64,000 nt of DNA from Prevotella sp. oral taxon 299 str. F0039 (GTDB lineage Bacteria > Bacteroidota > Bacteroidia > Bacteroidales > Bacteroidaceae). The notes beneath the pieces are model-generated. The model made no database searches and was not told the origin of the DNA. It saw only the letters and a list, made by a program, of their open reading frames with translations. Location: positions 645,851 to 709,850 of the forward strand of contig NC_022124.1 of assembly GCF_000163055.2 (NCBI RefSeq), in the 5' to 3' direction. Shown one piece after another: positions 10,359 to 35,309 of this stretch (position 1 is the stretch's first letter; every line of letters begins with the position of its first letter). A program made the translations under genes and the position numbers.

Positions 10359-10389
10359 TTGTGGGAATAATAAATATAATGTAATTTTG
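10359..10389 (+). promoter_or_regulatory. Promoter of rpsU
   Basis: TTG (10359-10361) lies 20 bp before TAATTTTG (10382-10389), 70 bp upstream of the rpsU ATG. Between 10208 and 10358 I see nothing else of note. Confidence 0.75.
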
Positions 10390-10459
10390 CAGACGCATAA
10401 TGGGGATATTATGTCCTTATGTGTATAAGTTTAACTATTTAAAAATTTAAAACTAAAAC

Positions 10460-10651
10460 ATGATTATTGTACCAGTTAAAGATGGCGAAAACATCGAAAG
10501 AGCTTTAAAGAAGTTCAAGAGAAAATTTGAAAAAACCGGAGTTGTTAAAGAGTTGCGTATGCGTCAACAATATAACAAGCCTTCTGTTTTAAAGCGTCTT
10601 AGAATGGAACACGCTGTTTATGTACAAAAACTACGTGCAAACGAAGAATAA
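10460..10651 (+). CDS. rpsU: Small ribosomal subunit protein S21 (bS21)
   Basis: A 63-residue basic protein of the 30S platform near the 16S 3' end. The start MIIVPVKDGENIERALKKFKR and the Arg/Lys-rich second half (RMRQQY, KRLRMEHA) are typical. It has its own promoter and is followed after 80 bp by the tyrosine recombinase gene and then hpf, an order I recall from other Bacteroidales. Confidence 0.96.
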   Translation: MIIVPVKDGENIERALKKFKRKFEKTGVVKELRMRQQYNKPSVLKRLRMEHAVYVQKLRANEE

Positions 10652-10731
10652 AACGTAGTACATTTTTGGTAGTTTCAATAAAATTCCGTATATTCGCAAG
10701 TGAAACATCAGAGTGATGCGTGGTAGAATAT

Positions 10732-11625
10732 ATGATAATTGACGAGTTCTTGAACTATCTTAAATACGAGAAACGAAGATCTTTACTTACTGTAGAGAGT
10801 TATTCGGAAGACTTAAAGGCTTTTCAATCGTATTTTACAAATTTAGATAGTCTGCTCTCTTGGGAGACAATAACAGCTAATGATGTTCGTTCTTGGATAG
10901 AGAGTATGATGGATAAAGGAAACACTGCCACTACAATCAATCGACGGTTGAGTGCATTGCGTTCCTTTTATCGTTTTGCAAGATTACGTCTTGCATACGA
11001 GAAAGATCCAGCAAAGAATGTTATAGGGCCGAAGAAGCAAAAGCTATTGCCGCAGTTTCTGAAAGAAGTTGAAATGGAACGACTTTTAGATGATGTGTTG
11101 CAGGGAGATGACTTCGAAAGTGTTCGTGATAGGATAATTATCTTACTATTTTATGAAACGGGTGTCCGTTTGTCGGAACTAACTGCACTAAATTGTTGCG
11201 ATATTGATTTGATGCAACGTCAGATTAAGGTGACGGGAAAGCGTAACAAACAACGGATTGTCCCCTTTGGAGAAAAGCTGAGTCTAGAGTTGCGTGCTTA
11301 TATATTAATAAGAGGTGAAAGAGAAAATATAGTAGATGATGCTTTGTTTGTGTCAAATAAAGGTTCTCGAATGCCATCTACGACAATTCGTCGAAGGGTG
11401 GAACATTATCTCTCTCAGGTTTCGACTCTGAAAAAACGTTCTCCACACGTTCTTCGCCATACTTTTGCTACCGTAATGCTAAATAATGACGCAGATATTG
11501 AAAGCGTGAGGCATTTATTGGGGCATGAGAGCTTGAAGGCAACTGAGGTTTATACTCATACGACTTTCGAACATTTGAAAAAAGTCTATAGTAAGGCTCA
11601 TCCTAGATCTAGCCGTAAAAAATAA
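10732..11625 (+). CDS. xerC: Site-specific tyrosine recombinase XerC/XerD
   Basis: Chromosome-dimer-resolving recombinase. The 297-residue protein has an N-terminal SAM-like core-binding domain (residues ~1-85, including INRRLSALRSFYRF) and a C-terminal catalytic domain with the expected residues: Arg in ETGVRLSEL, Lys in VTGKRNKQRIVPF, HxxR in HVLRHTFAT, His in LLGHESL and nucleophile Tyr in TEVYTHTT. I use the ATG at 10732; an in-frame GTG at 10720 would add four residues. Its place between rpsU and hpf, with full length and no attachment-site repeats, indicates the housekeeping enzyme rather than an integrase. XerC versus XerD cannot be separated with certainty. Confidence 0.88.
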   Translation: MIIDEFLNYLKYEKRRSLLTVESYSEDLKAFQSYFTNLDSLLSWETITANDVRSWIESMMDKGNTATTINRRLSALRSFYRFARLRLAYEKDPAKNVIGPKKQKLLPQFLKEVEMERLLDDVLQGDDFESVRDRIIILLFYETGVRLSELTALNCCDIDLMQRQIKVTGKRNKQRIVPFGEKLSLELRAYILIRGERENIVDDALFVSNKGSRMPSTTIRRRVEHYLSQVSTLKKRSPHVLRHTFATVMLNNDADIESVRHLLGHESLKATEVYTHTTFEHLKKVYSKAHPRSSRKK

Positions 11626-11641
11626 AAGAAAGGAACGAATT

Positions 11642-11941
11642 ATGGAACTTAGAATTAAATCAATTCATTTTGATGCTACTGACAAGTTAGAAACTTTTAT
11701 CGAAAAGAAGGTTTTAAAATTAGAAAAATCTTTTGAAGATATAACGAAAGTAGAGGTGCAATTAAAGGTAGTAAAACCTGCAACGGCATTGAATAAAGAA
11801 ACGAGTCTTAATGTAAATGTACCTGGAGAGGCTATTTATGTGGCAAAAACTTGTGATACATTTGAAGAGGGAATCGATCAATGTATAGATGCGTTAAAGG
11901 TGAAGTTGACCAAATACAAAGAAAAATCAAGAAATAAATAA
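11642..11941 (+). CDS. hpf: Ribosome hibernation-promoting factor (HPF/RaiA, short form)
   Basis: A 99-residue S30AE-domain protein (MELRIKSIHFDATDKLETFIEKK at the N-terminus, beta-alpha-beta-beta-beta-alpha pattern) that binds the 30S decoding region in stationary phase. It lacks the C-terminal dimerisation domain of long HPF, so it is of the short type. It starts 16 bp after the recombinase gene and is probably co-transcribed with it. Confidence 0.9.
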   Translation: MELRIKSIHFDATDKLETFIEKKVLKLEKSFEDITKVEVQLKVVKPATALNKETSLNVNVPGEAIYVAKTCDTFEEGIDQCIDALKVKLTKYKEKSRNK

Positions 11942-11958
11942 AAAAAAGTCCGAAAAGT

Positions 11959-11989
11959 TTTGGATATTAAAAATAAAGTTATACCTTTG
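11959..11989 (+). promoter_or_regulatory. Promoter of the tRNA-tuf operon
   Basis: TTTG (11959-11962) and TACCTTTG (11982-11989) are 19 bp apart, 53 bp before the first tRNA. This is one of the best consensus matches in the window. Confidence 0.85.
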
Positions 11990-12041
11990 CAGACGTTTTA
12001 CAGCGAGTAGTAAATAAGCTGCCTAGCGGCTGCAAAGATTT

Positions 12042-12115
12042 GCCTCTTTAGCTCAGTTGGCCAGAGCACGTGATTTGTAATCTCGGGGTCGTTGGTTCGA
12101 ATCCGACAAGAGGCT
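12042..12115 (+). tRNA. tRNA-Thr (anticodon TGT)
   Basis: Acceptor arms GCCTCTT and AAGAGGC with discriminator T, D arm GCTC/GAGC, anticodon loop TTTGTAA and T arm with GTTCGAATCC. The anticodon stem has one T-T mismatch. CCA is not encoded. Confidence 0.93.
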
Positions 12116-12145
12116 CAAAATTTACTAACGTAAACTAAACGAATA

Positions 12146-12228
12146 GGGTAGTTACCAGAGTGGCCAAATGGGGCAGACTGTAAATCTGCTGTCTTTCGAC
12201 TTCGGTGGTTCGAATCCATCACTACCCA
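12146..12228 (+). tRNA. tRNA-Tyr (anticodon GTA)
   Basis: Acceptor arms GGGTAGT/ACTACCC, anticodon stem CAGA/TCTG around CTGTAAA, a long type II variable arm (83 nt in total), and T-arm GGTTCGAATCC. CCA is not encoded. Confidence 0.95.
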
Positions 12229-12245
12229 CTTCAGTATAATAAATT

Positions 12246-12318
12246 GCGGAAATAGCTCAGTTGATAGAGCACTAGCCTTCCAAGCTGGGGGTCGCGGGTT
12301 TGAGCCCCGTTTTCCGCT
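12246..12318 (+). tRNA. tRNA-Gly (anticodon TCC)
   Basis: Acceptor arms GCGGAAA/TTTCCGC, anticodon loop CTTCCAA and T arm CGGGTTTGAGCCCCG (a GTTTGAGCC variant of the usual TTCGA loop). CCA is not encoded. Confidence 0.94.
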
Positions 12319-12323
12319 CTTAT

Positions 12324-12395
<72 letters not shown>

Positions 12396-12481
12396 CTACT
12401 TCTTAACTTCTTTTGTGGAGAGACAGAAGAAAAACAATAATAATAGATTATTCAATTACATAATAAAAAGAAAATTAAGCT

Positions 12482-13672
12482 ATGGCTAAAGAGAAATTCG
12501 AGCGTACCAAACCGCACGTTAACGTTGGTACAATTGGTCACGTAGACCACGGTAAGACAACTTTGACTGCAGCCATCTCTAAGGTGTTGCACGAAAAAGG
12601 TTTTGGTTCTGAAGAAGCTAAATCATTTGATCAAATTGATAACGCTCCAGAAGAAAAAGAACGTGGTATTACTATTAACTCTGCTCACATTGAGTATGAA
12701 ACAGCTAATCGTCACTATGCACACGTTGACTGTCCTGGACACGCTGACTATGTGAAAAACATGGTAACTGGTGCTGCTCAGATGGATGGTGCTATTCTTG
12801 TTGTAGCTGCAACTGATGGTCCTATGCCTCAAACTCGTGAGCACGTTCTTCTTGCTCGTCAGGTAAACGTTCCTCGTTTGGTTGTTTTCTTGAACAAGTG
12901 CGACATGGTTGATGATGCAGAAATGCTAGACCTAGTTGAAATGGAAGTTCATGAAATTCTTGAACAATACGAATATGAAGAAGATACTCCTATCGTTCGT
13001 GGTTCTGCTCTAGGTGGTTTGAATGGCGTTGATAAGTGGGTTGAAAAGATCGTGGAATTGATGGATACTGTTGATACATGGATTCAAGAGCCTCCACGTG
13101 ATATGGATAAACCATTCTTGATGCCTATCGAAGACGTGTTCTCAATCACAGGTCGTGGTACTGTTGCTACTGGTCGTGTTGAAACCGGTCGTGTTAAAGT
13201 AGGTGATGAAGTTGAACTTCTAGGTCTTGGTGAAGATAAGAAATGCGTTGTAACAGGTGTTGAAATGTTCCGCAAGCTTCTTGATGAAGGTGTTGCTGGT
13301 GATAACGTAGGTTTGTTACTTCGTGGTATTGATAAGAACGAAATCAAACGTGGTATGGTTCTTTGTCACCCAGGTCAGATTAAACCTCATAAGAAATTTA
13401 AGGCTTCAGTTTACGTATTGAAGAAAGAAGAAGGCGGACGTCATACTCCATTCGGAAACAAATACCGTCCTCAATTCTACTTACGTACTATGGACTGTAC
13501 AGGTGAAATCACATTGCCAGAGGGTGTAGAAATGGTTATGCCTGGTGATAACGTTGAGATCACTGTAGAACTAATCTATGCTGTAGCATTGAACGTAGGT
13601 CTTCGTTTCGCTATTCGTGAAGGTGGACGTACAGTAGGTTCTGGTCAGATTACACAAATCCTTGAAGACTAA
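12482..13672 (+). CDS. tuf: Elongation factor Tu
   Basis: GTPase that delivers aminoacyl-tRNA to the ribosome. The 396-residue protein has all G motifs: GHVDHGKTT (residues ~19-27), switch [21 protein letters not shown] and GSALGG, followed by the two beta-barrel domains ending [10 protein letters not shown]. It is the only tuf copy in the window and is linked to the tRNA cluster upstream rather than to fusA at 40 kb. A moderate hairpin (13694-13733) separates it from tRNA-Trp. Confidence 0.98.
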
Positions 13673-13693
13673 TATTTAAGGATTAAATATATT

Positions 13694-13738
13694 AAGATTC
13701 CTGTTTTGCACAGTTTCTGCTAGCAGGAATCTTATTTT
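13694..13738 (+). terminator. Hairpin between tuf and tRNA-Trp
   Basis: AAGATTCCTG (13694-13703) pairs with CAGGAATCTT (13724-13733), followed only by ATTTTA. It could be a leaky terminator or a processing signal in front of tRNA-Trp; no new promoter is evident after it. Confidence 0.6.
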
Positions 13739-13811
13739 ACGGGTTTAGCTCAGTTGGTAGAGCACTGGTCTCCAAAACCAGGTGTCGAGAGTTCGAGTCT
13801 TTCAACCCGTG
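13739..13811 (+). tRNA. tRNA-Trp (anticodon CCA)
   Basis: Acceptor arms ACGGGTT/AACCCGT, anticodon stem CTGGT/ACCAG around CTCCAAA, and T arm GAGAGTTCGAGTCTTTC. The gene ends 18 bp before the secE ATG, matching the common tRNA-Trp-secE-nusG order. Confidence 0.95.
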
Positions 13812-13829
13812 CAAAAAAAAGAAGATAAT

Positions 13830-14021
13830 ATGTTCAATAAGATAGTAAATTATTGCAAGACTAGTTATGACGAACTTGCGCATAAAACTACTTGGCCTAC
13901 ACGTGCTGAATTAACCCATAGTGCAATGGTTGTATTATCTGCTTCCCTTATCATTGCATTGTTGGTTTTCTGTATGGATAGCGTGTTTAAGTTTGTAATG
14001 GGTACTATCTATCCCAATTAA
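13830..14021 (+). CDS. secE: Preprotein translocase subunit SecE
   Basis: The 63-residue single-spanning form of SecE, which clamps SecY in the inner membrane. Residues 1-32 are the amphipathic cytosolic helix with the conserved TTWPTRAEL motif, followed by one membrane helix (HSAMVVLSASLIIALLVF). I start at ATG 13830; a longer in-frame ORF from 13782 overlaps tRNA-Trp and is rejected. It stands 13 bp before nusG. Confidence 0.93.
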   Translation: MFNKIVNYCKTSYDELAHKTTWPTRAELTHSAMVVLSASLIIALLVFCMDSVFKFVMGTIYPN

Positions 14022-14034
14022 TACCTATAAATAA

Positions 14035-14580
14035 ATGGCTGAAATTGGAAAGAATTGGTATGTGCTTCGTGCTGTAAGTGGTAAGGAAGCTAAGGTAAAA
14101 GAATATATCGAAGCTGAGATTAAACACAACACGTTGCTATCGTCGTATGTTTCTCAGGTTTTAATACCTCTAGAGAAGCATGCTTCTTTGCGTAATGGCA
14201 AAAGAGTAATTACGGAGAAGATAAGTCTTCCTGGTTACGTTTTTGTTGAAGCTGTTTTAAAAGGTGACGTAGCCCATACATTGAGATTTATTCCTAATGT
14301 GTTAGGGTTTTTAGGTGGTTTAGATAATCCTTCACCCGTTCCACAGGCGGAGATAAATCGCATGCTTGGCACAGCGGAAGAAACCGAAGTTGCGGATGAA
14401 ATCAATATCCCTTACGAGGTGAATGAAACTGTAAAAGTTACCGATGGACCTTTTAGTGGATTCAGTGGAGTTATTGAAGAGGTTAACTCTGAAAAACACA
14501 AACTGAAAGTTATGGTTAAGATATTTGGCCGTAAAACACCATTAGAACTAAGTTTTATGCAAGTCGAGAAAGAGGGGTAA
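14035..14580 (+). CDS. nusG: Transcription termination/antitermination factor NusG
   Basis: Binds RNA polymerase across the cleft and couples it to ribosomes or Rho. The 181-residue protein has the NGN domain ([21 protein letters not shown] at the start, LPGYVFVEA) and a C-terminal KOW domain ([16 protein letters not shown], ~residues 130-145). Standard secE-nusG-rplK context; no inserted domain as in RfaH-like or UpxY paralogues. Confidence 0.96.
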
Positions 14581-14641
14581 CACATTGTTACGGATGTAAT
14601 ATCTCTTGAATAAATTAAATTTTAATATTAACAAAAAAGAA

Positions 14642-15082
14642 ATGGCTAAAGAAGTTGCTGGATTAATCAAATTACAGATTAAAGGTGGCGCAGCGAATCC
14701 TTCACCTCCAGTAGGACCTGCTCTAGGTTCTAAGGGTATCAATATTATGGGATTCTGCAAAGAGTTCAATGCCCGCACCCAGGATAAAGCAGGTAAAGTA
14801 ATTCCTGTTGTTATCACTTACTATACTGATAAGTCATTCAGTTTTGAGCTTAAAACTCCTCCTGCTGCAGTTCAATTGAAAGAACTTGCTAAGGTAAAGA
14901 GTGGCTCTGCACAGCCTAATCGCCAAAAAGTTGCTTCGGTAACATGGGAGCAGGTGAAAGTAATTGCTGAAGATAAAATGAAAGACTTAAACTGTTTTAC
15001 AGTAGAGTCTGCAATGAAACTTATAGCAGGTACAGCAAGAAGTATGGGTATCACTGTAAACGGGGACTTCCCTGGTAAATAA
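14642..15082 (+). CDS. rplK: Large ribosomal subunit protein L11 (uL11)
   Basis: 146-residue stalk-base protein that binds the GTPase-associated 23S rRNA region. The N-terminus [19 protein letters not shown] and [18 protein letters not shown] are diagnostic. The reading frame is open from 14606, but the ATG at 14642 gives the conserved start; the twelve extra residues are not family-like. First gene of the rplK-A-J-L run. Confidence 0.97.
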
Positions 15083-15104
15083 TTTATAACTTCAATTTAA
15101 GAAA

Positions 15105-15797
15105 ATGAGTAAACTGACAAAAAATCAAAAATCAGTAGCTGATAAAGTTGAAGCAGGGAAAGTATACACTCTAAAAGAAGCATCAGAGTTAGTAAAGGAA
15201 ATTACAACCACTAAGTTTGAAGCATCTTTGGATATCGATGTACGTTTAGGAGTAGATCCACGTAAGGCGAATCAAATGGTTCGTGGCGTTGTTACTCTTC
15301 CTAATGGTACAGGTAAAACAACACGTGTATTGGTTCTCTGTACTCCAGATCAAGAATCTGCAGCTAAAGAAGCTGGAGCTGATTATGTTGGTCTTGATGA
15401 ATATATCACAAAGATCAATGGAGGCTGGACAGATGTTGATGTAATTATTACAATGCCATCATGTATGGGTAAGGTTGGTCCTTTAGGTCGTGTTTTAGGT
15501 CCTCGTGGATTGATGCCAAACCCAAAGAGTGGTACTGTTACAATGGATGTAGCTAAGGCTGTTAAAGATGTAAAGTCTGGTAAGATTGATTTTAAAGTTG
15601 ATAAGGCTGGAATTATCCATACTTCAATTGGTAAGGTTACTTTCACACCTGATCAAATTTATCAGAATGCAAAAGAATTTATTGCTACTGTTATCAAACT
15701 TAAGCCTGCTGCTGCTAAAGGTACATATATCAAGAGTATCTTTATTTCAAGCACAATGAGTAAGGGTATCAAGATTGATCCTAAATCAGTTGAATAA
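15105..15797 (+). CDS. rplA: Large ribosomal subunit protein L1 (uL1)
   Basis: 230 residues, typical length. L1 forms the mobile stalk at the E site and often represses its own operon by binding a leader similar to its rRNA site. Motifs [38 protein letters not shown] and the C-terminal [16 protein letters not shown] are present. It lies 22 bp after rplK. Confidence 0.97.
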
Positions 15798-15815
15798 CTC
15801 TAAAAGTTTTGTACA

Positions 15816-16334
15816 ATGAAGAAAGAAGTAAAAGATACTATAATCGTTGAGTTAGGCGAGAAGCTTAAGTCTTATCCACATTTCTACCTTGTAGATGTTA
15901 CAGGGTTGAATGCTGAGACAACAAGTGAATTGCGTCGTAAGTGCTTCAAGAATGAAATTAAGATGCTTGTTATAAAGAACACTCTTTTGCACAAGGCATT
16001 TGAAGCATCTGAGATTGATTTTGAACCTTTGTATGATTGTTTAACAGGTAATACTGCTGTGTTGTTCACAAATACAGCGAACAGTCCTGCAAAATTATTG
16101 AAAGAGTATACAAAGCAAGGTGTTCCTTCTCTTAAAGCTGCATACGCAGAAGAGAGCTTATACGTAGGAGCAGACAAGCTTGAAGAACTTGTTTCAATTA
16201 AGAGCAAGAATGAAGTTATTGCTGAGATCGTTGCTTTGTTGCAATCTCCTGCAAAGAACGTCATTTCAGCTTTACAATCAGGTGGCAACACAATCCATGG
16301 AGTTTTAAAAACTTTAGGAGAGCGTCCTGAATAA
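15816..16334 (+). CDS. rplJ: Large ribosomal subunit protein L10 (uL10)
   Basis: 172-residue stalk base to which L7/L12 dimers attach through the C-terminal helix. N-terminal VTGLNAETTSELRRKC and IKNTLLHKAFE are typical. The gap to rplA is only 18 bp, so the long L10-binding leader known from enterobacteria is absent; autoregulation, if any, must use another site. Confidence 0.95.
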   Translation: MKKEVKDTIIVELGEKLKSYPHFYLVDVTGLNAETTSELRRKCFKNEIKMLVIKNTLLHKAFEASEIDFEPLYDCLTGNTAVLFTNTANSPAKLLKEYTKQGVPSLKAAYAEESLYVGADKLEELVSIKSKNEVIAEIVALLQSPAKNVISALQSGGNTIHGVLKTLGERPE

Positions 16335-16381
16335 GATAATAAATTAATACAATAACGAAATAATTAAAAAAATAAAATAAG

Positions 16382-16759
16382 ATGGCAGATATTAAAGCTA
16401 TTGCTGAAGAATTAGTAAATTTGACAGTTAAAGAAGTAAATGAGTTAGCAACTGTTCTTAAAGAAGAATATGGTATCGAACCTGCTGCAGCTGCTGTAGC
16501 TGTAGCTGCTGGTCCTGCTGCTGCTGGTGCAGCTGGTGGTGAAGAAAAGACATCTTTCGATGTAGTTCTTACTGACGCTGGTGCTGCAAAACTACAAGTT
16601 GTTAAAGCAGTTAAGGAAGCTTGTGGCTTAGGTTTGAAAGAAGCTAAAGATCTAGTTGATGGTGCTCCTGCAACAATCAAAGAAGGTCTTTCTAAAGACG
16701 AAGCTGAAAACTTGAAGAAAGCAATCGAAGAAGCTGGTGCTAAAGTAGAATTAAAGTAA
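16382..16759 (+). CDS. rplL: Large ribosomal subunit protein L7/L12 (bL12)
   Basis: 125-residue stalk protein that recruits translational GTPases. It has an N-terminal dimerisation helix pair (residues ~1-35), an Ala/Gly-rich hinge ([19 protein letters not shown]) and the C-terminal domain [21 protein letters not shown] with the factor-binding [12 protein letters not shown]. 47 bp after rplJ. Confidence 0.97.
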
Positions 16760-16815
16760 TTTAATTCCCATCTAATTTGCAAAGACTTTGATGTCTTTTG
16801 CTAGATAAAACAATT

Positions 16816-16862
16816 ATGGTTAGAATTTACTAAGTAGGTGAATTCTAACCATTTTGTGTCTT
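16816..16862 (+). terminator. Attenuator-like hairpin between rplL and rpoB
   Basis: ATGGTTAGAATT (16816-16827) pairs perfectly with AATTCTAACCAT (16841-16852), followed by TTTTGTGTCTTT. It sits in the 142-bp gap before rpoB with no recognisable promoter after it, so part of the transcription probably reads through, as in other rplL-rpoB junctions. Confidence 0.75.
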
Positions 16863-16901
16863 TAATGAAATTATTTTGTAGATAAATACATACAAATATT
16901 G

Positions 16902-19900
16902 ATGGCTTCAAAAATTGTTGATAATAGAATAAACTTTGCAAGTGTGCATAATCCGATGCCATATCCGGATTTTCTCGACGTGCAATTAAAGTCCTTTAGA
17001 GACTTCCTACAGTTAGATACTCCACCAGAGGAGCGTAAGAACGATGGTTTATACAAGGTGTTTGCAGAAAACTTCCCTATAACCGACACACGTAACAATT
17101 TCGTTCTTGAGTTTTTAGATTATTATATCGATCCTCCTCGTTATTCAATTGACGAGTGTCTAGAGCGTGGACTAACATATAGTGTTCCCTTAAAGGCAAA
17201 GATGAAATTATATTGTACCGACCCAGATCATGAAGATTTCGGTACATTTATCCAAGATGTTTTCTTGGGTACTATCCCTTATATGACTCATAATGGAACT
17301 TTTGTTATTAATGGAGCTGAGCGTGTAGTAGTTGCCCAGTTGCATCGTTCTCCTGGTGTCTTCTTCGGACAAGGCGTTCATGCAAATGGTACAATGCTTT
17401 ATTCTGCTCGTATCATTCCATTCAAGGGTTCTTGGATTGAGTTTGCGACCGATATAAACAACGTAATGTATGCTTACATCGATCGTAAAAAGAAATTACC
17501 TGTTACAACTCTTTTGAGAGCTATCGGTTATGAAACAGATAATGACATTCTTCAAATTTTTGATTTAGCCGAAGAAGTTAAGGTTAATAAGAAAGTTTTG
17601 AAGGCATCTATTGGTAGAAAGTTGGCAGCTCGTGTCTTAAAGACTTGGAATGAAGACTTTGTTGATGAAGATACAGGTGAAGTAGTTTCTATCGAACGTA
17701 ATGAGATGATCATGGATCGTGAGACTGAGATTACAGAAGAGAATATGGAAGACATCTTAGATAGTGGCTGTTCTACCATATTGTTACACAAAGACTCAGA
17801 AATGGCCAACAAGTATTCTTTGATTTTTAACACACTTGCTAAAGATCCAAGTAATACTGAGAAAGAAGCCGTTAACTATATCTATCGTCAATTGCGTAAT
17901 GCAGATCCTGCAGACGATGCAAGTGCACGTGAAGTGTTCCAAAACCTATTCTTCTCTGACAAGCGTTACGACTTAGGAGAAGTAGGACGTTATCGTATCA
18001 ATCGTAAGTTAGGACTTGAAATTGATATGGATACTCGTGTTCTTACCAAAGATGACATTATTGCAATTATACGTTACTTGATTCAGCTAATCAATTCGAA
18101 TGCAACAGTTGATGATATCGACCACCTTTCAAACCGAAGAGTGCGCAATGTAGGCGAACAATTAGCTAATCAATTCTCTATAGGATTGGCTCGTATGAGC
18201 AGAACAATCCGTGAACGTATGAACGTACGTGACAATGAAGTGTTTACACCAACAGATCTTATCAATGCTAAGACCATTTCTAGTGTAATCAACTCATTCT
18301 TCGGAACCAACCCATTGTCTCAGTTCATGGACCAAACCAACCCACTTGCTGAAGTAACTCACAAACGTCGTTTGTCAGCTTTAGGTCCTGGTGGTTTGTC
18401 TCGTGAGCGTGCAGGCTTCGAGGTTCGTGACGTTCACTACACACACTATGGTCGTTTGTGTCCAATTGAGAGCCCTGAAGGTCCAAACATTGGTCTTATC
18501 TCATCTCTTTGTGTATATGCAAACATCAACGATCTAGGATTTATTGTAACTCCTTATCGTACAGTTAAGGATTCAAAAGTTGAGATGGACAACAAAAACG
18601 TTGTTTATCTTACAGCTGAAGAAGAAAACAAGATTATTGGTCAGGGAAATGCTCCACTAACAGTAGATGGTTCATTTATCCGCACAACCGTAAAATGTCG
18701 TCAAGATGCCGACTATCCAGTTGTAGCACCAGAGCATGTTGATCTTGTAGACGTATCACCTCAACAGATTGCTTCTGTTTCTGCCAGCTTGATTCCATTC
18801 TTAGAACATGATGACGGTCACCGTGCTTTGATGGGATGTAACATGATGCGCCAGGCAGTTCCACTCCTTCATAACGATGCTCCAATTGTAGGAACAGGTT
18901 TAGAAAAGAAAGTTTGTGAAGATTCACGAACCATGATTACTGCTGAAGGAGATGGCGTTATTGACTATGTAGATGCAACAACTATCCGTATTCTTTACGA
19001 TCGTACAGAAGAGGAAGATTTCGTAAGCTTCGAACCAGCGTTAAAAGAATATAGAATTCCTAAGTTCCGTCGTACCAACCAGAATATGACCATCGACTTA
19101 CGTCCTATCTGTACAAAGGGACAAAGAGTAAAACAAGGTGATATTCTAACAGAAGGATATGCTACAGAAAATGGCGAATTAGCTCTAGGACGTAACCTTC
19201 TCGTTGCATATATGCCTTGGAAGGGTTATAACTATGAGGACGCTATTGTACTAAGTGAGCGTATTGTTCGTGACGATATTCTTACATCTGTTCACGTAGA
19301 TGAGTATTCATTAGACGTGAGAGAAACAAAACGTGGTGTTGAAGAATTCACAAGCGATATTCCAAACGTGAGTGAAGAAGCAACAAAAGATCTCGACGAT
19401 AATGGTATTGTTCGTGTAGGTGCTCGCATCGAACCAGGCGATATCCTTATTGGAAAGATCTCTCCAAAGGGAGAAAGCGATCCTTCACCAGAAGAAAAGC
19501 TTCTTCGCGCTATCTTCGGAGATAAAGCAGGTGATGTTAAAGACTCTTCTTTGAAAGCTAACCCATCACTAAGTGGTGTTGTTATCGATAAGAAACTCTT
19601 CTCAAGAGCTATTAAGACTCGTGAGACCAAGAAACAAGATAAAGTTCTTCTAGCTAGTCTTGAAGAAGAATACGAAGCAAAGAATAACGACTTAAAAGAT
19701 ATTCTTGTAGATAAACTTCTTGTTCTTACAGAAGATAAAGTATCTGAAGGAGTAAAAGATTACACAGGAGCTGAAATCGTAACTAAGGGTAGCAAGTTCA
19801 CAACAACAATCCTTAAGAACCTTGAATATGATGGTATTCAAGCAGGAGGTTGGACAAGTGACGAGCACACAAATGGTCTTATCAAGCAATTGATAATGAA

Positions 19901-20711
19901 CTATATCCACAAATACAAACTCTTAGACGCAGAATTAAAACGTCGCAAGTTCGCTATTTCTATTGGAGATGAACTTCCATCAGGAATCCTTCAAATGGCA
20001 AAAGTTTATATTGCTAAGAAGCGTAAGATTGGTGTAGGTGATAAACTTGCAGGTCGTCATGGTAACAAGGGTATCGTATCTAAGGTTGTTAGAATGGAAG
20101 ATATGCCATTCCTAGAGGACGGTCGTCCTGTAGACTTGGTACTTAACCCACTTGGTGTGCCTTCTCGTATGAACCTTGGACAGATCTTCGAAGCGATTTT
20201 AGGTGCAGCAGGTAAAAAGCTAGGTGTTAAGTTTGCAACTCCAATCTTCGATGGTGCTAAGCTTGATGACCTTTCAGAATGGACCGAAAAGGCAGGATTG
20301 CCTCACCTATGTTCAACACATCTTTACGATGGAGAAACAGGAGAACAATTCGACCAGCCTGCAACAGTAGGTGTAACATACTTCTTGAAACTCGGACACA
20401 TGGTGGAAGACAAGATGCATGCACGTAGCATTGGTCCATACTCTCTCATCACACAACAGCCACTTGGTGGTAAAGCACAATTTGGTGGACAACGTTTTGG
20501 AGAGATGGAAGTTTGGGCTCTTGAAGCATTTGGTGCAAGTCACGTGTTACAAGAGATTCTAACTGTTAAGTCAGACGACACCGTTGGACGTAGTAAAGCT
20601 TATGAAGCAATTGTTAAAGGTGATCCAATGCCAACACCAGGTATCCCAGAATCACTCAATGTGTTATTGCACGAGCTTCGAGGCTTAGGCTTAAGTATCA
20701 AGTTGGATTAA
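16902..20711 (+). CDS. rpoB: DNA-directed RNA polymerase subunit beta
   Basis: Catalytic core subunit, 1269 residues from the ATG at 16902 (a TTG one codon earlier is an unlikely start). The rifampicin pocket is wild-type in pattern: [28 protein letters not shown] retains the Asp, His and Ser positions where resistance changes occur, so the sequence predicts rifampicin susceptibility at this locus. The nucleotide-binding region [20 protein letters not shown] and the C-terminal [21 protein letters not shown] are intact. 37 bp upstream of rpoC. Confidence 0.98.
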
Positions 20712-20748
20712 TTCTTATTCATTATAAGAACCCTAATTATAAGTAAAC

Positions 20749-23700
20749 ATGGCTTTTAAGAAAGATACAAAAATAAAAAATAATTTCACGAAGATTACCA
20801 TTAGTCTTGCTTCTCCTGAAGAGATTTTGGAAAATTCGTTTGGTGAGGTTACAAAGCCTGAGACCATTAACTATCGTACATATAAACCAGAACGTGATGG
20901 TTTATTCTGCGAACGCATCTTCGGTCCTACAAAAGATTACGAGTGTGCTTGCGGTAAATATAAACGTATTCGTTACAAAGGTATAGTGTGCGACCGATGC
21001 GGTGTCGAGGTAACCGAAAAGAAAGTGCGTCGTGAACGTTCAGGACACATCGACCTAGTTGTGCCTGTTGCTCACATCTGGTATTTCCGTTCGTTACCTA
21101 ATAAAATGGGTTATTTGTTGGGAATGCCAACAAAGAAACTCGATGCTGTAATTTATTACGAGCGTTATGTTGTTATTCAACCAGGTGTTTTTGCTGGTAG
21201 AACAAATAGCGAAGGAGAGGAAGTGAACGGTTCACACAAGATGGACTTGTTGACAGAAGATGAATATTTGAACATCATTGATACACAAATCGATCCTAAT
21301 AACGCTCTTCTTGACGATAACGATCCTAATAAGTTTATTGCAAAGATGGGTGCAGAAGCAATTCATGATCTTCTTGCTCGTCTTGATCTCGATTCACTTT
21401 CTTATGAATTACGTGATCGTGCAAATAACGACTCAAGTCAACAACGTAAGGCAGATGCGCTAAAACGTCTTCAAGTAGTTGAAGCATTTCGTAGCAGTGT
21501 AAACATTAATCGCCCTGAATGGATGATTCTAAAGATTATTCCAATCATTCCACCAGAGCTTCGCCCATTGGTTCCACTAGATGGTGGACGCTTTGCAACA
21601 TCAGATTTGAATGACCTTTATCGCCGTGTTATTATACGTAATAATCGTTTGAAGAGACTTATGGAGATCAAAGCTCCAGAAGTTATTCTTCGTAACGAAA
21701 AGCGTATGTTGCAAGAAGCAGTTGATAGCTTATTCGATAACTCACGCAAGAGCTCAGCAGTTCGTAGCGAAAGCAACCGACCATTGAAGTCTTTATCAGA
21801 CTCACTAAAAGGAAAACAAGGACGTTTCCGTCAAAATCTTTTAGGTAAGCGTGTTGACTATTCTGCACGTTCTGTAATTGTTGTCGGTCCAGAACTACAA
21901 ATGGGAGAGTGCGGTTTACCAAAACTTATGGCAGCCGAGCTATACAAACCATTTATTATTCGTAAGTTGATCGAGCGTGGAATCGTTAAGACCGTTAAGA
22001 GTGCGAAGAAGATTGTAGACCGCAGAGAACCAGTTATCTGGGATATTCTCGAGAACGTTATGAAGGGACATCCTGTTCTTCTTAACCGTGCTCCAACGCT
22101 TCACCGTCTTGGTATACAAGCATTCCAGCCAAAACTTATCGAAGGTAAAGCAATTCAGTTGCACCCATTGGCATGTACAGCGTTCAATGCTGACTTCGAT
22201 GGAGACCAAATGGCGGTTCACCTTCCATTGAGTAATGAAGCAATTCTTGAAACACAAGTGCTGATGCTTCAAAGCCATAACATTCTAAACCCAGCCAACG
22301 GAGCACCTATCACCGTTCCTTCTCAGGACATGGTACTTGGTCTTTACTATATCACAAAGATCCGTCCAGGTGCTAAGGGACAAGGTTTAACATTCTATGG
22401 ACCAGAAGAAGCAATCATCGCTCACAACGAAGGTAAGTGTGATTTGCATGCTCCTATCAAGGTAATTGTTAACGACCTAGTTGATGGCCGCTTACAAAAA
22501 CGCATGGTAGAGACCTCTGTTGGACGTGTAATTGTTAATGGCATTATTCCTGAAGAAGTAGGTTACTTCAACAATATTATTTCTAAGAAAACCCTACGTG
22601 ATATCATCTCTGATGTTATTAAGGCTGTAGGTATGGCACGTGCAAGCGAGTTCCTAGACGGAATTAAGAACCTAGGTTACCGCATGGCTTATGTTGCAGG
22701 ACTTTCATTTAACCTTGATGATATCATCATTCCAGTTGAAAAAGAAGCTATTGTTGAGAAAGGTCACGAAGAAGTACGTCAAATTACCGAGAACTATAAC
22801 ATGGGTTTCATTACCGATACCGAGCGTTATAATCAGGTAATTGATACTTGGACTCACGTAAACAACCAACTTGCAAGCATCTTGATGAAAGAGATGACCG
22901 AAGCAGACCAAGGCTTTAACGCTGTTTATATGATGCTTGACTCTGGAGCCCGTGGTTCTAAAGATCAGATTAAGCAGCTTTCTGGTATGCGTGGTTTGAT
23001 GGCTAAGCCTCAAAAGGCAGGTGCAGAAGGACAACAAATTATCGAGAACCCAATTCTTTCTAACTTTAAAGAGGGTATGAGTGTGCTTGAGTACTTTATC
23101 TCATCTCACGGAGCTCGTAAAGGTTTGGCGGATACTGCGATGAAAACTGCCGATGCTGGTTACTTAACAAGACGTTTGGTTGACGTATCACACGACGTGA
23201 TTATCAACGAAGAAGATTGTGGAACGCTACGTGGATTGGTATGTACCGCTCTAAAGAATGGCGACGAAGTGATCTCTACTCTTTATGAAAGAATCCTCGG
23301 ACGTGTGTCTGTTCATGATATCATTCACCCAACAACAGGTGCTCTCATCGTTGCTGCTGGTGACGAAATCACTGAAGATAAAGCTCAAATCATTGAAGCA
23401 TCTCCAATCGAAAGTGTTGAAATACGTTCAGTACTAACTTGCGAAAGCAAGCACGGAGTATGTATGAAATGTTACGGACGTAACCTTGCTACAAGCCGAA
23501 TGGTTCAAAAGGGAGAAGCTGTTGGTGTCATTGCAGCGCAAGCTATTGGTGAGCCTGGTACACAGTTAACACTTCGTACCTTCCACGCCGGTGGTGTGGC
23601 TGGTAACGCAGCAGCTAATGCTTCAATCGTTGCTAAGAACGATTCACGCCTAGAGTTCGACGAATTGCGTACTGTTCCTTATGTAGAAACAGATGGAGAC

Positions 23701-25086
23701 AAAGAAGTTGACTGCCAAATGGTAGTAAGCCGTCTTGCTGAAGTACGTTTCGTTGACGTAAATACAAATATCGTTCTTTCTACAATGAACGTGCCTTATG
23801 GTTCTTCACTCTACTTTAAACATGGTGATAAAGTGAGCAAGGGCGACCTAGTTGCAAAGTGGGACCCATTCAACGCCGTAATCGTTTCGGAATATGCAGG
23901 TAAGATTCGCTTCAACGATGTTGTAGAAGGAAAGACCTATCACGCTGAAACCGACGAAACAACTGGTTTGACAGAAAAGATTATTACCGACTCAAAAGAT
24001 AAGACAATGATTCCTACCTGTGATATCCTTGATGCTAAGGGACACGTAATAGGAACATATAACTTCCCTGTAGGTGGACACGTTGTTATCGAAGATGGCG
24101 CAATGATTAAGACTGGTCAACGTCTTGTGAAGATTCCACGTGCTCTTGGTGGAGCTGGTGACATCACTGGTGGTCTTCCACGTGTAACCGAGTTGTTCGA
24201 AGCTCGTAACCCATCTAACCCCGCAGTTGTATCTGAAATCGACGGAGAGGTAACCATGGGTAAGGTAAAACGTGGTAATCGTGAAATCATTGTAACATCT
24301 AAAACAGGCGAACAACGCAAGTACTTAGTAAGCTTGTCTAAGCAAATCTTGGTTCAAGAACACGATGCTGTGCGTGCAGGAACACCACTTTCAGACGGTG
24401 TTATCACTCCTGGTGACATCCTCGCAATTAAGGGTCCTACTGCCGTTCAAGAGTATATCGTAAATGAAGTACAAGACGTTTACCGCCTACAAGGTGTGAA
24501 GATTAACGATAAGCACTTCGAAATCATCGTTCGTCAGATGATGCGTAAGGTTCAAATCAACGATCCAGGTGACACTACATTCCTTGAACAAGAAATGGTA
24601 GATAAACTTGATTTCGCTGCAGAAAACGATCGTATCTGGGGTAAGAAAGTTGTTGTTGACGCTGGAGACTCTGAAACTCTACGTCCAGGACAAATCATTT
24701 CTGTTCGTCGTTTGCGTGATGAGAACTCTAATCTCAAACGTCGTGACCTTCGTTTGGTTCAAGTTCGTGATGCAGTTGCTGCAACATCAACTCAGATCCT
24801 ACAAGGTATCACCCGTGCTGCATTGCAAACTAAGAGCTTCATGAGCTCTGCTTCGTTCCAAGAAACAACTAAGGTACTTAACGAAGCTGCAATTCGTGGT
24901 AAGGTAGATTACTTAGAAGGAATGAAAGAAAACGTAATTTGCGGTCACCTAATACCTGCAGGTACAGGTCTTCGCAAGTGGGATAAGATCATCGTTGGTT
25001 CGAAAGAAGTTTACGATAGATTACAAGCAAATAAAAGAAATGTACTTGATTACGCTGAAAATCAAGTAGCAGAGAACGAGCAATAA
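20749..25086 (+). CDS. rpoC: DNA-directed RNA polymerase subunit beta'
   Basis: 1445-residue catalytic subunit. Visible: the N-terminal zinc ribbon (CACGKY and CDRCGVEVT, residues ~65-85), the bridge to the active site with the Mg-binding [14 protein letters not shown] near 485-498, the trigger-loop and bridge-helix area around [20 protein letters not shown], and the second zinc site ([21 protein letters not shown]). The C-terminus ends in an acidic tail. Transcription ends at the strong terminator 22 bp downstream. Confidence 0.98.
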
Positions 25087-25107
25087 CGTTCTTTTATCAA
25101 TCATAAG

Positions 25108-25146
25108 AAGAGGAAATATACTTAGGGTTATTTCCTCTTTTTTTTA
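25108..25146 (+). terminator. Intrinsic terminator after rpoC
   Basis: AAGAGGAAATA (25108-25118) pairs with TATTTCCTCTT (25129-25139), followed by a run of T. Confidence 0.95.
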
Positions 25147-25494: not shown

Positions 25495-25537
25495 AATTAC
25501 ATTGTTATTGTAGTGAATAGCATTGCTTTTAATTGGC
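25495..25537. repeat. Two-unit array of the 22-nt repeat family
   Basis: Two units, 25495-25515 (21 nt) and 25516-25537 (22 nt), each with the ACATTGTTATT / GCATTGCTTTT core of the dispersed family. It lies between the rpoC side and the convergent 5'-nucleotidase gene. Confidence 0.6.
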
Positions 25538-28739: not shown

Positions 28740-31028
28740 TTAGAAGTTTAAAGATAGGTGTGCCATGAAATTAAAGGGCGCAGAAGGAGCAAATCCTGCT
28801 GCATCTGTATCGTAAGGACCTTGTGTGTTCACTGCAGTTAGTTTGTTATTCACCTTTGTGTATTCTGGTCCTGCCCAACCATTGTTGTCATATTTTGCGC
28901 TAAATAGGTTGTAGAAGCTCACACCAAAGGTTGCATCTTTCACGCCTAAACGCTTTAACGAGAAGTTATAAGATAGGTCTAGGTCGGTAACACAATAGCT
29001 CTTTAACATCATTGTAGAAAGAACAGGGTTGCTATCCTTATCTTTTGATACCATATTTCTTATACCAGTGTTGGTTAAGTATTGCTCACCTACATAGCGA
29101 TTGATTAACATTGCTTTGAAACCTTTATAGTTAAAGGTGAAGATGTTGTTAAACATTGCGCTTGGAGAGAATGATAATGGCGATTCACCTTCAATGACTT
29201 GAGTTGCACCTTTGTCGTCGGTTACGCTCACATTGCTCACTCTATTCTTCGAGAAAGTAGCGTTTGCGCTCCATTCAAACCATGATGTTGGCTTGTAGTT
29301 CATTTCCAATTCAACACCCATACGATAGCTCTTTGCGAAGTTTCTTGTAATAGCTTCACCCAAGTTGTTTACCTCTCCAGTTAAAACAAATTGATCTTTG
29401 TAATTCATGTGGTAGAAGTTTACACCAGCATTGAACTTCTTTAATCTTAATTGATAGCCCACTTCAAGGTCGTTTAAGCGTTCTGCTGTAGGCAAACTGA
29501 GTTGTGCCTTGAGATTGTTCTCGTAGTTGTCGCGCACAGGTTCACGATGAGATATAGCATAACTTGCATAGAATCGGTGGTTAGGATTAATCTGATAGTT
29601 CACTCCGAACTTAGGATTAAAGAAGCTAAAGTTATTCTTTAGGTCGTAAACAAGTGCTCCTGTTTTTGCATTAATCACGTCAGAAGGACCGTTCATCTTT
29701 ATTCCTACGTGGCGATATTGTAGGTCTACGAATCCATTAAGCCCTTCAGTGAAAGTGTAATTCAATTTAGAGTAAACATTAAAGTCGGTCTTCTTAGTGT
29801 TATTGTCATAATAACGATGATAGGGGAAGAATGGATCTACAGGTTTAGCAACCCATGTAACATATCCATAGTGGTCGCCATCGTATTTATTCCAGCCACC
29901 TCCAATGGTAGCTTCAACATTCTTTTTGTTGTTAAACTGAAGTGAAGCAATAGTTCCGAAGAAGTCGTTTGAGAGCCATTTTTGACGTACTAACGAGCTT
30001 TTTGCTTTGGTCTTGTTAGCGTCTAATCCGTACTTTGATAGCTTTGTGTCCATTTTATATTGCTCATAGTAGCCCTTTCCGTTAGTATAATGCAAGGCAA
30101 CGTTCAAAGTCCAATATTTGTTTAAGAATTGATTCCAAAACAATTGGTAGTGTTGTTGGTGATAATTGTCGGTTTGATCACGATAAAATTGAGCGTTTCC
30201 GTTAGCATCTTTCTCCATTTCACCACTGGGATTATAAGTTCTTCCATACAAACTTTGAATGTATTTAGAGGTATAGTCCCATGCATGATAAGTGCGTTCA
30301 GTTCCGTTAAAGGTAATAAATTTAACGATAGTGTTATCTGCAAAGTATCCAGCTTGAACGAAATAAGAATTCAACTTGGCAGAAGCACGATCTCTATAAC
30401 CATCAGAACCGAGATTAGAAAGACGTCCTTGAATGCCCCAATGACCTCCAAGTAGTCCTGTTCCAAAGCGCAAAGTTTCTTTATGAGAAGCGTAAGAGCC
30501 AGCAGAAAGATCCACCGATAAGAAAGGATTCATACCAATTTGTTCGGTTTCCATATTGACAGTAGCACCAAAAGCACTGCTACCATTGGTAGAAGTTCCT
30601 ACACCTCGTTGTATTTGCATTGATGAAACACTCGATGCAAAGTCGCTCATATTCACCCAATACACTTGTGAACTCTCCGCATCATTTATGGGAATACCAT
30701 TCGAAGTGATGTTAATTCTACTTGGGTCTGTACCTCTTACACGTAAAGAAGTGTAGCCAATACCATTTCCTGCATCGCTAGTTGTGATGACAGAAGGGGT
30801 TAATGAGAGCAAGAAAGGAATGTCTTGTCCGTAGTTAATGGCTTTAAGTTGTTGCTTGTTGATGTTTTGAAATGCCATAGGGGTAGTTCTACTGGCACGT
30901 GTAGACGTCACTTGTACACTTTGAAGTTGGTAGGTCTTTAGTGTGTCTAACTTGGTTTCTTTTGGTGTTGCAGCATAAAGTGCAGGGCAACATGCTAGCA
31001 AAAATACTAGACTTTGTGGTTTTTTCAT
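28740..31028 (-). CDS. TonB-dependent outer-membrane receptor, probable thiamine receptor
   Basis: 762-residue receptor: signal peptide (residues 1-19, ending LYAA), TonB-box-like LQSVQVTSTRA near 34-44, plug domain (residues ~50-165, with YTSLRVRGTDPSRINITSNG and VQRGVGTSTNG-like text), then a 22-stranded barrel ending in the aromatic LSLNF. There is no SusC-type N-terminal carboxypeptidase-like domain. Downstream of a TPP aptamer and upstream of pnuT and thiN, it fits the Bacteroidota outer-membrane thiamine receptor described by comparative genomics. The substrate is inferred from context. Confidence 0.88.
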   Translation of the reverse strand: MKKPQSLVFLLACCPALYAATPKETKLDTLKTYQLQSVQVTSTRASRTTPMAFQNINKQQLKAINYGQDIPFLLSLTPSVITTSDAGNGIGYTSLRVRGTDPSRINITSNGIPINDAESSQVYWVNMSDFASSVSSMQIQRGVGTSTNGSSAFGATVNMETEQIGMNPFLSVDLSAGSYASHKETLRFGTGLLGGHWGIQGRLSNLGSDGYRDRASAKLNSYFVQAGYFADNTIVKFITFNGTERTYHAWDYTSKYIQSLYGRTYNPSGEMEKDANGNAQFYRDQTDNYHQQHYQLFWNQFLNKYWTLNVALHYTNGKGYYEQYKMDTKLSKYGLDANKTKAKSSLVRQKWLSNDFFGTIASLQFNNKKNVEATIGGGWNKYDGDHYGYVTWVAKPVDPFFPYHRYYDNNTKKTDFNVYSKLNYTFTEGLNGFVDLQYRHVGIKMNGPSDVINAKTGALVYDLKNNFSFFNPKFGVNYQINPNHRFYASYAISHREPVRDNYENNLKAQLSLPTAERLNDLEVGYQLRLKKFNAGVNFYHMNYKDQFVLTGEVNNLGEAITRNFAKSYRMGVELEMNYKPTSWFEWSANATFSKNRVSNVSVTDDKGATQVIEGESPLSFSPSAMFNNIFTFNYKGFKAMLINRYVGEQYLTNTGIRNMVSKDKDSNPVLSTMMLKSYCVTDLDLSYNFSLKRLGVKDATFGVSFYNLFSAKYDNNGWAGPEYTKVNNKLTAVNTQGPYDTDAAGFAPSAPFNFMAHLSLNF

Positions 31029-31054: not shown

Positions 31055-31150
31055 AAAAGGGGCGTTTCTTGGTATCCTTTTTCCTCCGCTGGCATTATCC
31101 AGATCAGGTTTTAGGGTATAATCTCAGCTCGAAATGTCGGGCACCCCTTA
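31055..31150 (-). promoter_or_regulatory. TPP riboswitch (THI element)
   Basis: On the minus strand the leader contains P1 5' strand AAGGGGTGCC (near 31150), the GCTGAGAT-like P3 element CTGAGATTATACCC, the diagnostic ACCTGATCTGGATAATGCCAGCG core, here cited as CTGATCTGG and ATGCCAGCGGAGGA, and a closing GCCCCTTT at ~31063-31056. The aptamer ends ~27 bp before the receptor ATG, so TPP binding probably controls translation or early termination of the whole thiamine operon. Confidence 0.95.
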
Positions 31151-31173
31151 ACTTGCAGTCTGCAAATCGACGA

Positions 31174-31405: not shown

Positions 31406-31559
31406 GAACGCAATGCGTTGTGAAAGAAGAGGTTGCGCCCTCGCAAGGTAAAAGCTATGTTGTAGCCTTGTAAACTCAATGCTTTTAGCTACCAATGTCA
31501 ATGCTTTTACTCACTAAAAGCATTGCTTTTGGAAATGAAACTCGATGTGCAATGCAAGT
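31406..31559. repeat. Longest array of the 22-nt repeat family
   Basis: Five clear units start at 31450, 31472, 31494, 31516 and 31538, all exactly 22 nt, sharing AA at the start and a CAATGCTTTT-like core. Two degraded units can be traced at 31406 (GCAATGCG core) and 31428. The array fills most of the 485-bp gap between the riboswitch operon and the end of the Cof-type gene; the rest of that gap (31182-31405) shows nothing I can assign. Confidence 0.8.
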
Positions 31560-34124: not shown

Positions 34125-34203
34125 TTCAATATGATATAAGTAAAGGTAAATTTTCTTTAAGTAATATGCCTTAGTGGCTTATTGCTGGTGATGAAATAAA
34201 TGT

Positions 34204-34393
34204 AAGTGCGACATAACTGATGATAGTTTGTGTCGCACTTCTTTTGTTGTAGAGAGAAAAACAAATTGAAGGATAAAACAAAAGCAATGTTGTTGCTGTG
34301 TAAAAGCATAGCTATTGCACTGCAAAAGTGATGCTTTTAGAGTGTAAAAGGAATCCTATTGTGTCAGATTTACATAACGGGTGGGTGAGAATG
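34204..34393. repeat. Duplicated intergenic block, copy 1 (with 22-nt array)
   Basis: Nearly identical to 35124-35309 (offset 920 bp). It begins with a hairpin, AAGTGCGACA (34204-34213) pairing with TGTCGCACTT (34231-34240) and followed by CTTTTG, which can act as a terminator. It then contains four 22-nt units starting at 34280, 34302, 34324 and 34346 with the AAAAGCAATG core. The promoter of the next gene begins 18 bp after the block. Confidence 0.85.
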
Positions 34394-35071: not shown

Positions 35072-35123
35072 ACACTCTTTCTTATAATATAGTTTCAATA
35101 GGTTATTGAGATAACAAAATGAT

Positions 35124-35309
35124 GAATGCGGCATAGCTGGTGACAGTTTGTGTCGCACTTCTTTTGTTGTAGAGAGAAAAACAAATTGAAGGATAAAACA
35201 AAAGCAATGGTGTTGTTGTGTAAAAGCATAGCTATTGCACTGCAAAAGTGATGCTTTTGATGAGTAAAAGGAATGTTATTATGTCTGAATTACATAAAGG
35301 GTAAGAATG
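35124..35309. repeat. Duplicated intergenic block, copy 2 (with 22-nt array)
   Basis: Second copy of the block at 34204-34393. The left hairpin arm has diverged (AATGCGGCA instead of AGTGCGACA) but can still largely pair with TGTCGCACTT (35151-35160). Four 22-nt units start at 35200, 35222, 35244 and 35266; the second is identical to its partner in copy 1, and the fourth differs most. Confidence 0.85.

Follow-up and report, generated by a model that had tools for sequence, protein, structure and literature searches.

The window analysed here is a stretch of 64,000 nucleotides at the end of contig C2 (645,851-709,850) of Prevotella sp. oral taxon 299 str. F0039, whose genome (G000, hereafter the source genome) comprises 2.48 Mb in two contigs. 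A detector that looks for AAAAGCNNNGCTTTT-like units in pairs 22 bp apart and then extends them, each unit being scored for mismatches out of 12, found five arrays of degenerate 22-nt units in this window (Table 1). The first array follows a gene for an outer-membrane beta-barrel (1854-2468) and precedes one of OMP-like type (2850-4391), and among the matches listed between this region and the rest of the genome the array alone was covered. The last one is located between the convergent genes for ribosomal protein L17 (56802-57284) and a phosphorylase-family protein (57655-58338). The arrays at 34280 and 35200 are not independent, given that both fall within a noncoding duplication of 186 bp with 89.8% identity; the two copies (34198-34382 and about 35118-35302) flank an ORF of 196 aa without a Pfam match.

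The original prediction had placed these repeats at six intergenic sites, and all but one were detected; the site at 25495 is a weak pair that stays under the detector threshold, with a two-unit match (mismatches 3,2) at the corresponding block end of Hoylesella nanceiensis. Five units had been proposed for 31406-31559, a segment of 154 bp that spans seven periods: four are good, the outer one at 31406 is weak (4 mismatches), and those at 31428 and 31538 are poor (6 and 7 mismatches). The matching place in H. nanceiensis holds seven in-phase units with 0,3,2,2,5,4,5 mismatches. What had been read as three units at 57550-57615 is indeed an array, scored here as four units with a degenerate first one. 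In the same part of the window there is a TPP riboswitch (RF00059, 58.0 bits) at 31064-31158 on the minus strand. It belongs to the leader of the minus-strand gene 28740-31028, which encodes a TonB-dependent receptor, and suggests a function of this receptor in thiamine uptake.

Table 1. Positions of 22-nt repeat units in the window
Feature	Position	Mismatches per unit (of 12)	Remarks
Array, 4 units	2621-2701	2,4,3,2	Orthologous array in H. nanceiensis
Array, 4 good units (31450, 31472, 31494, 31516)	31450-31530	3,2,3,0	Gap-free alignment to the H. nanceiensis orthologue
Array, 4 units	34280-34360	2,1,1,3	Conserved in H. nanceiensis
Array, 4 units	35200-35280		Paralogue of 34280 (186-bp duplication); conserved in H. 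nanceiensis
Array, 4 units, first degenerate	57528-57608	5,2,0,0	
Doubtful unit pair, 21 bp apart	25495-25530	5,1	Downstream of rpoC; under detector threshold

A genome-wide family with a 22-bp period

In the whole source genome the core AAAAGCAATGCTTTT, with up to two mismatches, occurs 354 times on the forward and 380 times on the reverse strand, against 7 and 9 occurrences of the same pattern read backwards. A sample of 464 kb (the window and 20 further stretches of 20 kb each) contains 37 arrays, 30 of them with four units, and the reversed DNA contains one. The units are degenerate (mean of 2.28 mismatches out of 12), as might be expected if they were chance repeats of AT-rich intergenic DNA, but this explanation has a negligible probability, considering that 34 arrays were observed in 61.9 kb of noncoding pieces, where Markov simulations of order 1, 2 and 3 (40 runs per order) gave means of 0.10, 0.07 and 0.12, and that reversed controls yielded only 0-2 arrays per genome. 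When cores with up to two mismatches were each detected independently and spacings of 15-30 bp were considered, 216 of the 220 adjacent pairs from five species were exactly 22 bp apart. In the source genome 108 out of 115 array spacers are unique, core and phase being kept regardless. The predicted family of degenerate repeats is thus confirmed, together with its strict period, and extends well beyond six sites.

The five species compared were the source genome, H. nanceiensis (G136) and three genomes taken to be those of a cattle MAG (G238), P. illustrans (G212) and H. saccharolytica (G366). Samples of the other four contained 25 arrays in H. nanceiensis (16 with four units; one in the reversed control), 22 in the cattle MAG (16 with four units; one in the control), 16 in P. 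illustrans (11 with five units; none in the control) and 21 in H. saccharolytica (nine with five units and six with seven; two in the control), the densities in the cattle MAG and H. saccharolytica being biased because most of their stretches were picked around known matches. The unit number is therefore mostly four, with five as the commonest number in P. illustrans and H. saccharolytica.

Among 201 genomes sampled from the family, a massive excess of single cores was found only in the source genome and H. nanceiensis, the next genomes being far lower (for instance G005, with 46 and 45 cores versus 15 and 10 for the control). The scan of related Prevotellaceae detected a two-core pattern (up to three mismatches) in 16 of 299 genomes of the genus, with zero control matches in each. 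The exact two-core pattern was found in 83 stretches among 84,980 named species genomes. Of the best 80 of these, 77 belong to Prevotella, Hoylesella or Prevotellaceae and come from ten genomes, including P. brunnea, P. illustrans, H. saccharolytica, H. nanceiensis and the cattle MAG; the other three (Xanthomonas, a Proteobacteria MAG and Paenibacillus) are lone unit pairs with other middle triplets and no longer array. Viral contigs gave no exact two-unit match; when they were scanned with a window protein that has no relation to the arrays, one locus was obtained, which was left out of the analysis. In the scans run, the arrays are confined to Prevotella and Hoylesella, where their distribution is patchy. 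An RpoB tree was built from the 24 out of 30 genomes with an RpoB match, the absent ones (G214, G226, G373, G378, G402 and G487) all being carriers of the two-core pattern. In this tree six strong carriers stand at separate places with close non-carriers beside them, and the starred branches force at least three gains or losses; since an equally low number of changes was obtained in 39 of 500 shuffles of the carrier labels, the clustering of carriers on the tree is weak.

Unit structure, helical phase and genomic position

The unit can be written as AAAAGC-N3-GC/TTTT-RS-N3-SY, that is, with an A-tract/GC rhythm of 11 bp, and consists of a palindrome of 15 bp (AAAAGC-N3-GCTTTT) and a spacer of the form R-N5-Y, whose first letter is R in 91-99% and last letter Y in 87-100% of cases. 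GC peaks fall at unit positions 5-6, 10-11, 17 and 21 in five out of five species, and the core letters are constant over a range of sampled GC contents from 37.6 to 51.4%. The order of G and C is fixed in the palindrome only (G5-C6 and G10-C11 being largely fixed) and free in the spacer. The commonest middle triplet is AAT/ATT in the source genome and TAT/ATA in the cattle MAG, P. illustrans and H. saccharolytica; it hardly varies among the 89 units of the cattle MAG (TAT or ATA) and is less uniform in the source genome and H. nanceiensis.

Counts of A-tract spacings peak at 11, 22 and 33 bp. In a simple planar model of the predicted bend, with other noncoding windows of 88 bp as reference, 92 of the 121 arrays had an A-tract vector sum at 11.0 bp above the 95th percentile (26/37 in the source genome, 22/22 in the cattle MAG, 9/16 in P. 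illustrans, 14/25 in H. nanceiensis and 21/21 in H. saccharolytica); at a pitch of 10.5 bp only 73 of 121 arrays did so. The predicted phasing of the dyads on one helical face is supported. A-tracts outside the arrays are in phase with them in P. illustrans and H. saccharolytica, weakly and on one side in the source genome, not clearly in H. nanceiensis, and about 3 bp off phase in the cattle MAG.

The arrays are intergenic, as had been predicted: in the five species 0-8.6% of array bases fall within called ORFs, against a coding share of 83-90% for the DNA as a whole. In the source genome, H. nanceiensis and P. illustrans together, gaps between divergent genes hold 4 of 75 arrays, although they account for 43 of the 241 gaps that measure 120 bp or more, whereas in the cattle MAG and H. 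saccharolytica the corresponding numbers are 9 of 41 arrays and 43 of 155 gaps (one array at a stretch end per species could not be classed and was left out of these counts); avoidance of divergent gaps is therefore not general. At facing gene 3' ends, a terminator-like hairpin was detected between gene end and array in 41 of 129 cases and beyond the array in 11 of 129, the span searched being the whole gap before the array and at most 250 bp beyond it, so that the arrays usually follow terminators where these are detected, as originally proposed. No clear pattern was found between replichore and array orientation in the source genome.

It had also been suggested that each unit forms a tiny hairpin as RNA, and the arrays could be RNA elements made of consecutive small hairpins or of one long hairpin, acting as terminators or 3'-end stabilisers. 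The arrays often lie no more than about 200 bp from the 3' end of a gene, and folding z-scores were negative in eight of eight stretches tried (-0.8 to -8.8), but such scores are to be expected anyway because palindromic units give them by construction. For covariation the reference was a swap null to which the mismatch filter had been applied in the same way, a naive table without this null being biased by the filter. Summed arm pairing was at or below the null in the source genome, the cattle MAG, P. illustrans and H. nanceiensis, and above it in H. saccharolytica by way of the pairs 6/10, 4/12 and 1/15; elsewhere, lone pairs exceeded the null (6/10 in the source genome, 5/11 in the cattle MAG and 2/14 in H. 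nanceiensis). Compensatory arm changes are thus not consistent, and the cattle MAG and P. illustrans frequently carry variants in which pair 6-10 is disrupted.

In addition, the positions that immediately flank the palindrome tend not to be complementary in the cattle MAG (74 versus 122.6, sd 7.3) and H. nanceiensis (88 versus 107.5, sd 8.3), an effect that is not clear in the source genome, P. illustrans and H. saccharolytica. Inner spacer positions 3-5 avoid self-pairing in the cattle MAG, H. nanceiensis and H. saccharolytica (z of -2.9, -2.8 and -4.3), with no clear difference in the source genome and P. illustrans. Complementarity between spacers of one array is below random in the cattle MAG (2.33 versus 2.80, sd 0.14), less strongly reduced in H. 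nanceiensis, the source genome and H. saccharolytica, and no different in P. illustrans. Six Rfam matches at the gathering threshold were found in the window, none of them at an array, and detected terminators mostly precede the array. There is no general hairpin signature, and RNA hairpins were rejected on covariation and avoidance of complementarity, despite the negative folding energies; we consider an RNA element very improbable.

Conservation, dispersal and possible mobile origin

The closest relative encountered was H. nanceiensis DSM 19126, with 87-92% identity in the four longest blocks for the part of the window that was searched. Aligned blocks contain 13 arrays of H. nanceiensis, each of which is matched by an array at the corresponding position of the source genome, and 12 of these partners are among the 13 source arrays covered by the first alignment. 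In that alignment, differences amounted to 57/636 in core arms, 24/159 in middle triplets, 22/106 at edges, 61/200 in inner spacers and 264/1,467 in flanks. When the analysis was repeated with called genes masked, bases matched and blocks above 95.2% identity dropped, the core arms had 55 changes in 646 positions versus 91 expected (0.6 times other intergenic DNA) and the inner spacers 60 in 205 versus 32 expected (1.9 times base-matched noncoding DNA). No indel event was found in 1,119 aligned array positions, compared with 156 in 11,681 other noncoding positions; about 15 were expected in the arrays, or about 7.5 on the assumption that phase was required in the source genome. These comparisons support selection on the core and, as predicted, on the phase.

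The aligned blocks are biased towards shared arrays, because a missing array may break a block. At block ends, a partner was found for the array at L050:4951, located in the corresponding gap, and for the one at L216:3816, which is cut by stretch ends; for the 57528 array, 181 bp past the block end at 57347, no H. nanceiensis array was found in the stretch just beyond. At L043:1870 one source array faces two in H. nanceiensis that are separated by 2.3 kb, which would fit a loss or gain of the intervening DNA through recombination of one array with another. Further synteny breaks with H. nanceiensis arrays at them or close by are window 25144/25495 (array L224:4186, plus two units forming a pair at L214:15972) and L043:17017/17167 (L212:13337 and L210:5745), and three arrays at breakpoints could not be scored for a partner. 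Since arrays occur at synteny breaks, they may recombine with one another and act as recombination sites. Blocks 95-98.5% identical to H. nanceiensis (window 10310-25144 and 35077-57347; L040:1-3933) lie beside blocks of 81-93% identity, which may reflect either a recent exchange or genes under strong conservation.

In H. saccharolytica, part of the arrays are found in noncoding elements of about 415 bp with inverted, CTTACAAATTGTTACTTTT-like ends (for example L109:17833-18247). Among 28 end pairs selected from those listed, 24 are exactly 397 bp apart and the others 396, 398, 398 and 418 bp; seven of the 21 sampled arrays lie between such ends. To judge by these features, the elements are a MITE-like family. 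In P. illustrans, six of the 16 sampled arrays lie in a dispersed noncoding family of about 400 bp (L075-L083) with copies about 80-90% identical, for which four copies tried revealed no convincing inverted ends. The two families have only short matches around the array in common. In the source genome homology between copies stops at or near the array; only the 34280/35200 duplication and some short overhangs, few in number, extend further. Because some arrays of two species ride in these 400-bp repeats, a mobile origin is likely, and the arrays may be a mobile module that later settled and was kept. The Y1/RAYT transposase family PF01797 was not found in six carriers (the five species, with the cattle MAG assembly 81% complete, and G520) and is present in the non-carriers G210 and G216; a RAYT/REP system was rejected on these grounds.

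It is conceivable that the array is a selfish MITE- or REP-like dispersed repeat whose palindromes bind the protein that spreads it, conservation then reflecting recent spread or past mobilisation instead of a role for the host. The patchy occurrence over the genus, with non-carriers next to strong carriers, and the 400-bp elements point in this direction, as does the change of the commonest middle triplet between genomes, which would be expected after spread from a master copy. On the other hand, the 13 of 13 partnered arrays (a sample biased towards presence), the two shared source arrays near block ends (set against one without a partner found and one facing two arrays), the rarity of shared spacers among copies that nevertheless keep core and phase, and the lack of a Y1/RAYT transposase in the six carriers searched speak for something else. 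We regard the selfish repeat as a tentative possibility, on the unlikely side.

Proposed role and relation to known systems

We propose, with about an even chance of being right, that the array is a platform for bending or wrapping DNA that offers repeated sites to a dimeric protein. The array would act as double-stranded DNA, with about four palindromic sites of 15 bp (five commonest in two species), held by the spacers exactly 22 bp apart, that is, two turns of 11.0 bp, so that spacer length would be fixed and its letters free. With A-tracts every 11 bp on one face and GC pairs half a turn off, about 88 bp are predicted to bend or wrap. Each palindrome would most likely be read by a homodimeric, sequence-specific DNA-binding protein of Prevotella, a dedicated reader being indicated because the order of G and C is fixed in the palindrome and free in the spacer. 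Adjacent dimers would stack on one face, and the complex would bend or wrap the intergenic DNA and serve as a site of the nucleoid or of a supercoil domain. In its favour are the genome-wide excess and exact period, the 13 partnered arrays, the slowly changing core and the alignment free of indels, the GC peaks common to five species, the R and Y at the spacer ends, the A-tract vector sums, and the inconsistent covariation of arms together with a tendency to avoid complementarity. This proposal is weakened because carriers are patchy among close relatives, which would be odd for an essential nucleoid system, because some arrays ride in dispersed repeats and sharing is incomplete at block ends, because three arm pairs covary in H. 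saccharolytica and folding z-scores are negative, and because fewer arrays pass at the 10.5-bp pitch and the phase of outside A-tracts is inconsistent.

The 11-bp A/GC rhythm of the units would also suit a simpler explanation, in which the arrays are extreme examples of ordinary bacterial 11-bp A-tract clusters and gyrase or HU would wrap them through indirect readout, with no dedicated protein. Ordinary noncoding DNA of the source genome has an 11-bp A-tract periodicity too (ratio 1.38 at 11), and gyrase sites of E. coli are described as having a GC phasing of 10.75 bp and as being enriched downstream of highly transcribed operons (PMC6379681). Against it stand the largely fixed G/C order and specificity of the palindrome, the nearly fixed unit number in most species and the failure to find arrays in close relatives presumed to have both gyrase and HU, which makes this explanation quite improbable. 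A bolder version of the wrapping platform appears to us rather unlikely, namely that the arrays supply the DNA for a bacterial wrapping system not described so far. They would be fixed platforms with several sites, matched to the 11.0-bp pitch of supercoiled DNA, on which a dedicated Prevotella protein forms a small nucleosome-like complex that marks intergenic boundaries, and they would have moved between species as a mobile module.

A genome-wide element under selection, for which helical phase counts as much as the letters do, would be a natural, countable test case of how bacteria bend and partition intergenic DNA, here in an oral and rumen genus, and its patchy distribution among species offers natural comparisons. 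We found no paper on a matching element, and in the literature searched none of BrickBuilt, REP/BIME, A-tract clusters and the gyrase motif matches in sequence and phase together. The view that no described element matches therefore stands for the sequence, in that literature and in Rfam, but BrickBuilt and REP/BIME are similar in kind.

BrickBuilt is described as a MITE/minisatellite of Porphyromonas gingivalis with a 23-nt unit of consensus AGAYCATARTATCCTCTCRTRTG, 19 copies, a variable number of units and long predicted stem-loops (PMC4596501). Like it, our arrays are intergenic, dispersed repeats of Bacteroidales, with tandem units of about two helical turns and no further spacer, and part of those in H. 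saccharolytica and P. illustrans lie inside a larger dispersed repeat. Unlike it, they have a 22-bp period, their AAAAGCN3GCTTTT-N7 unit differs by eye from the BrickBuilt consensus, most are without leader or tail, the number of units varies little in most species, and there is no preference for hairpins. The BrickBuilt leader and tail with terminal inverted repeats were not seen in the source genome, and the H. saccharolytica copies have inverted ends. As regards MITEs in general, terminal inverted repeats occur in the elements of about 415 bp of H. saccharolytica and solo arrays of the source genome have little flank homology, while no empty site appeared in aligned blocks and one array near a block end was without a partner found.

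REPs are described as sequences of 20-40 bp (PMC3733652) tied to RAYT transposases (PMC2817692); in the available part of a further REP/BIME paper (PMC12306157) the word Prevotella was not found. The arrays resemble REP/BIME in being hundreds of clustered intergenic palindromes, rare between divergent genes in the source genome, H. nanceiensis and P. illustrans, and differ in their shorter palindrome of 15 bp, their exact 22-bp tandem phase and the lack of a detectable Y1 transposase in the carriers searched. Compensatory stem changes are a mark of RAYT-type REPs; summed arm pairing did not exceed the null in four of five species and did so in H. saccharolytica through three pairs.

A-tract clusters of the bacterial nucleoid, reportedly treated by Tolstorukov in 2005, are generic and not known to form a sequence family. 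They are described as regions of about 100 bp with A-tracts phased with the helix and predicted curvature (PMC3940949, PMC4761138). The arrays, with about 100 bp of helically phased A-tracts and predicted curvature, have these same features, but they possess in addition a specific palindrome and a fixed GC order. Finally, the gyrase motif of E. coli is described as a degenerate pattern with a 10.75-bp period over 130 bp and a central cleavage part (PMC6379681); the arrays share with it a periodic GC signal over regions of about four turns, but their period is 11.0 bp, and they are continuous and palindromic.
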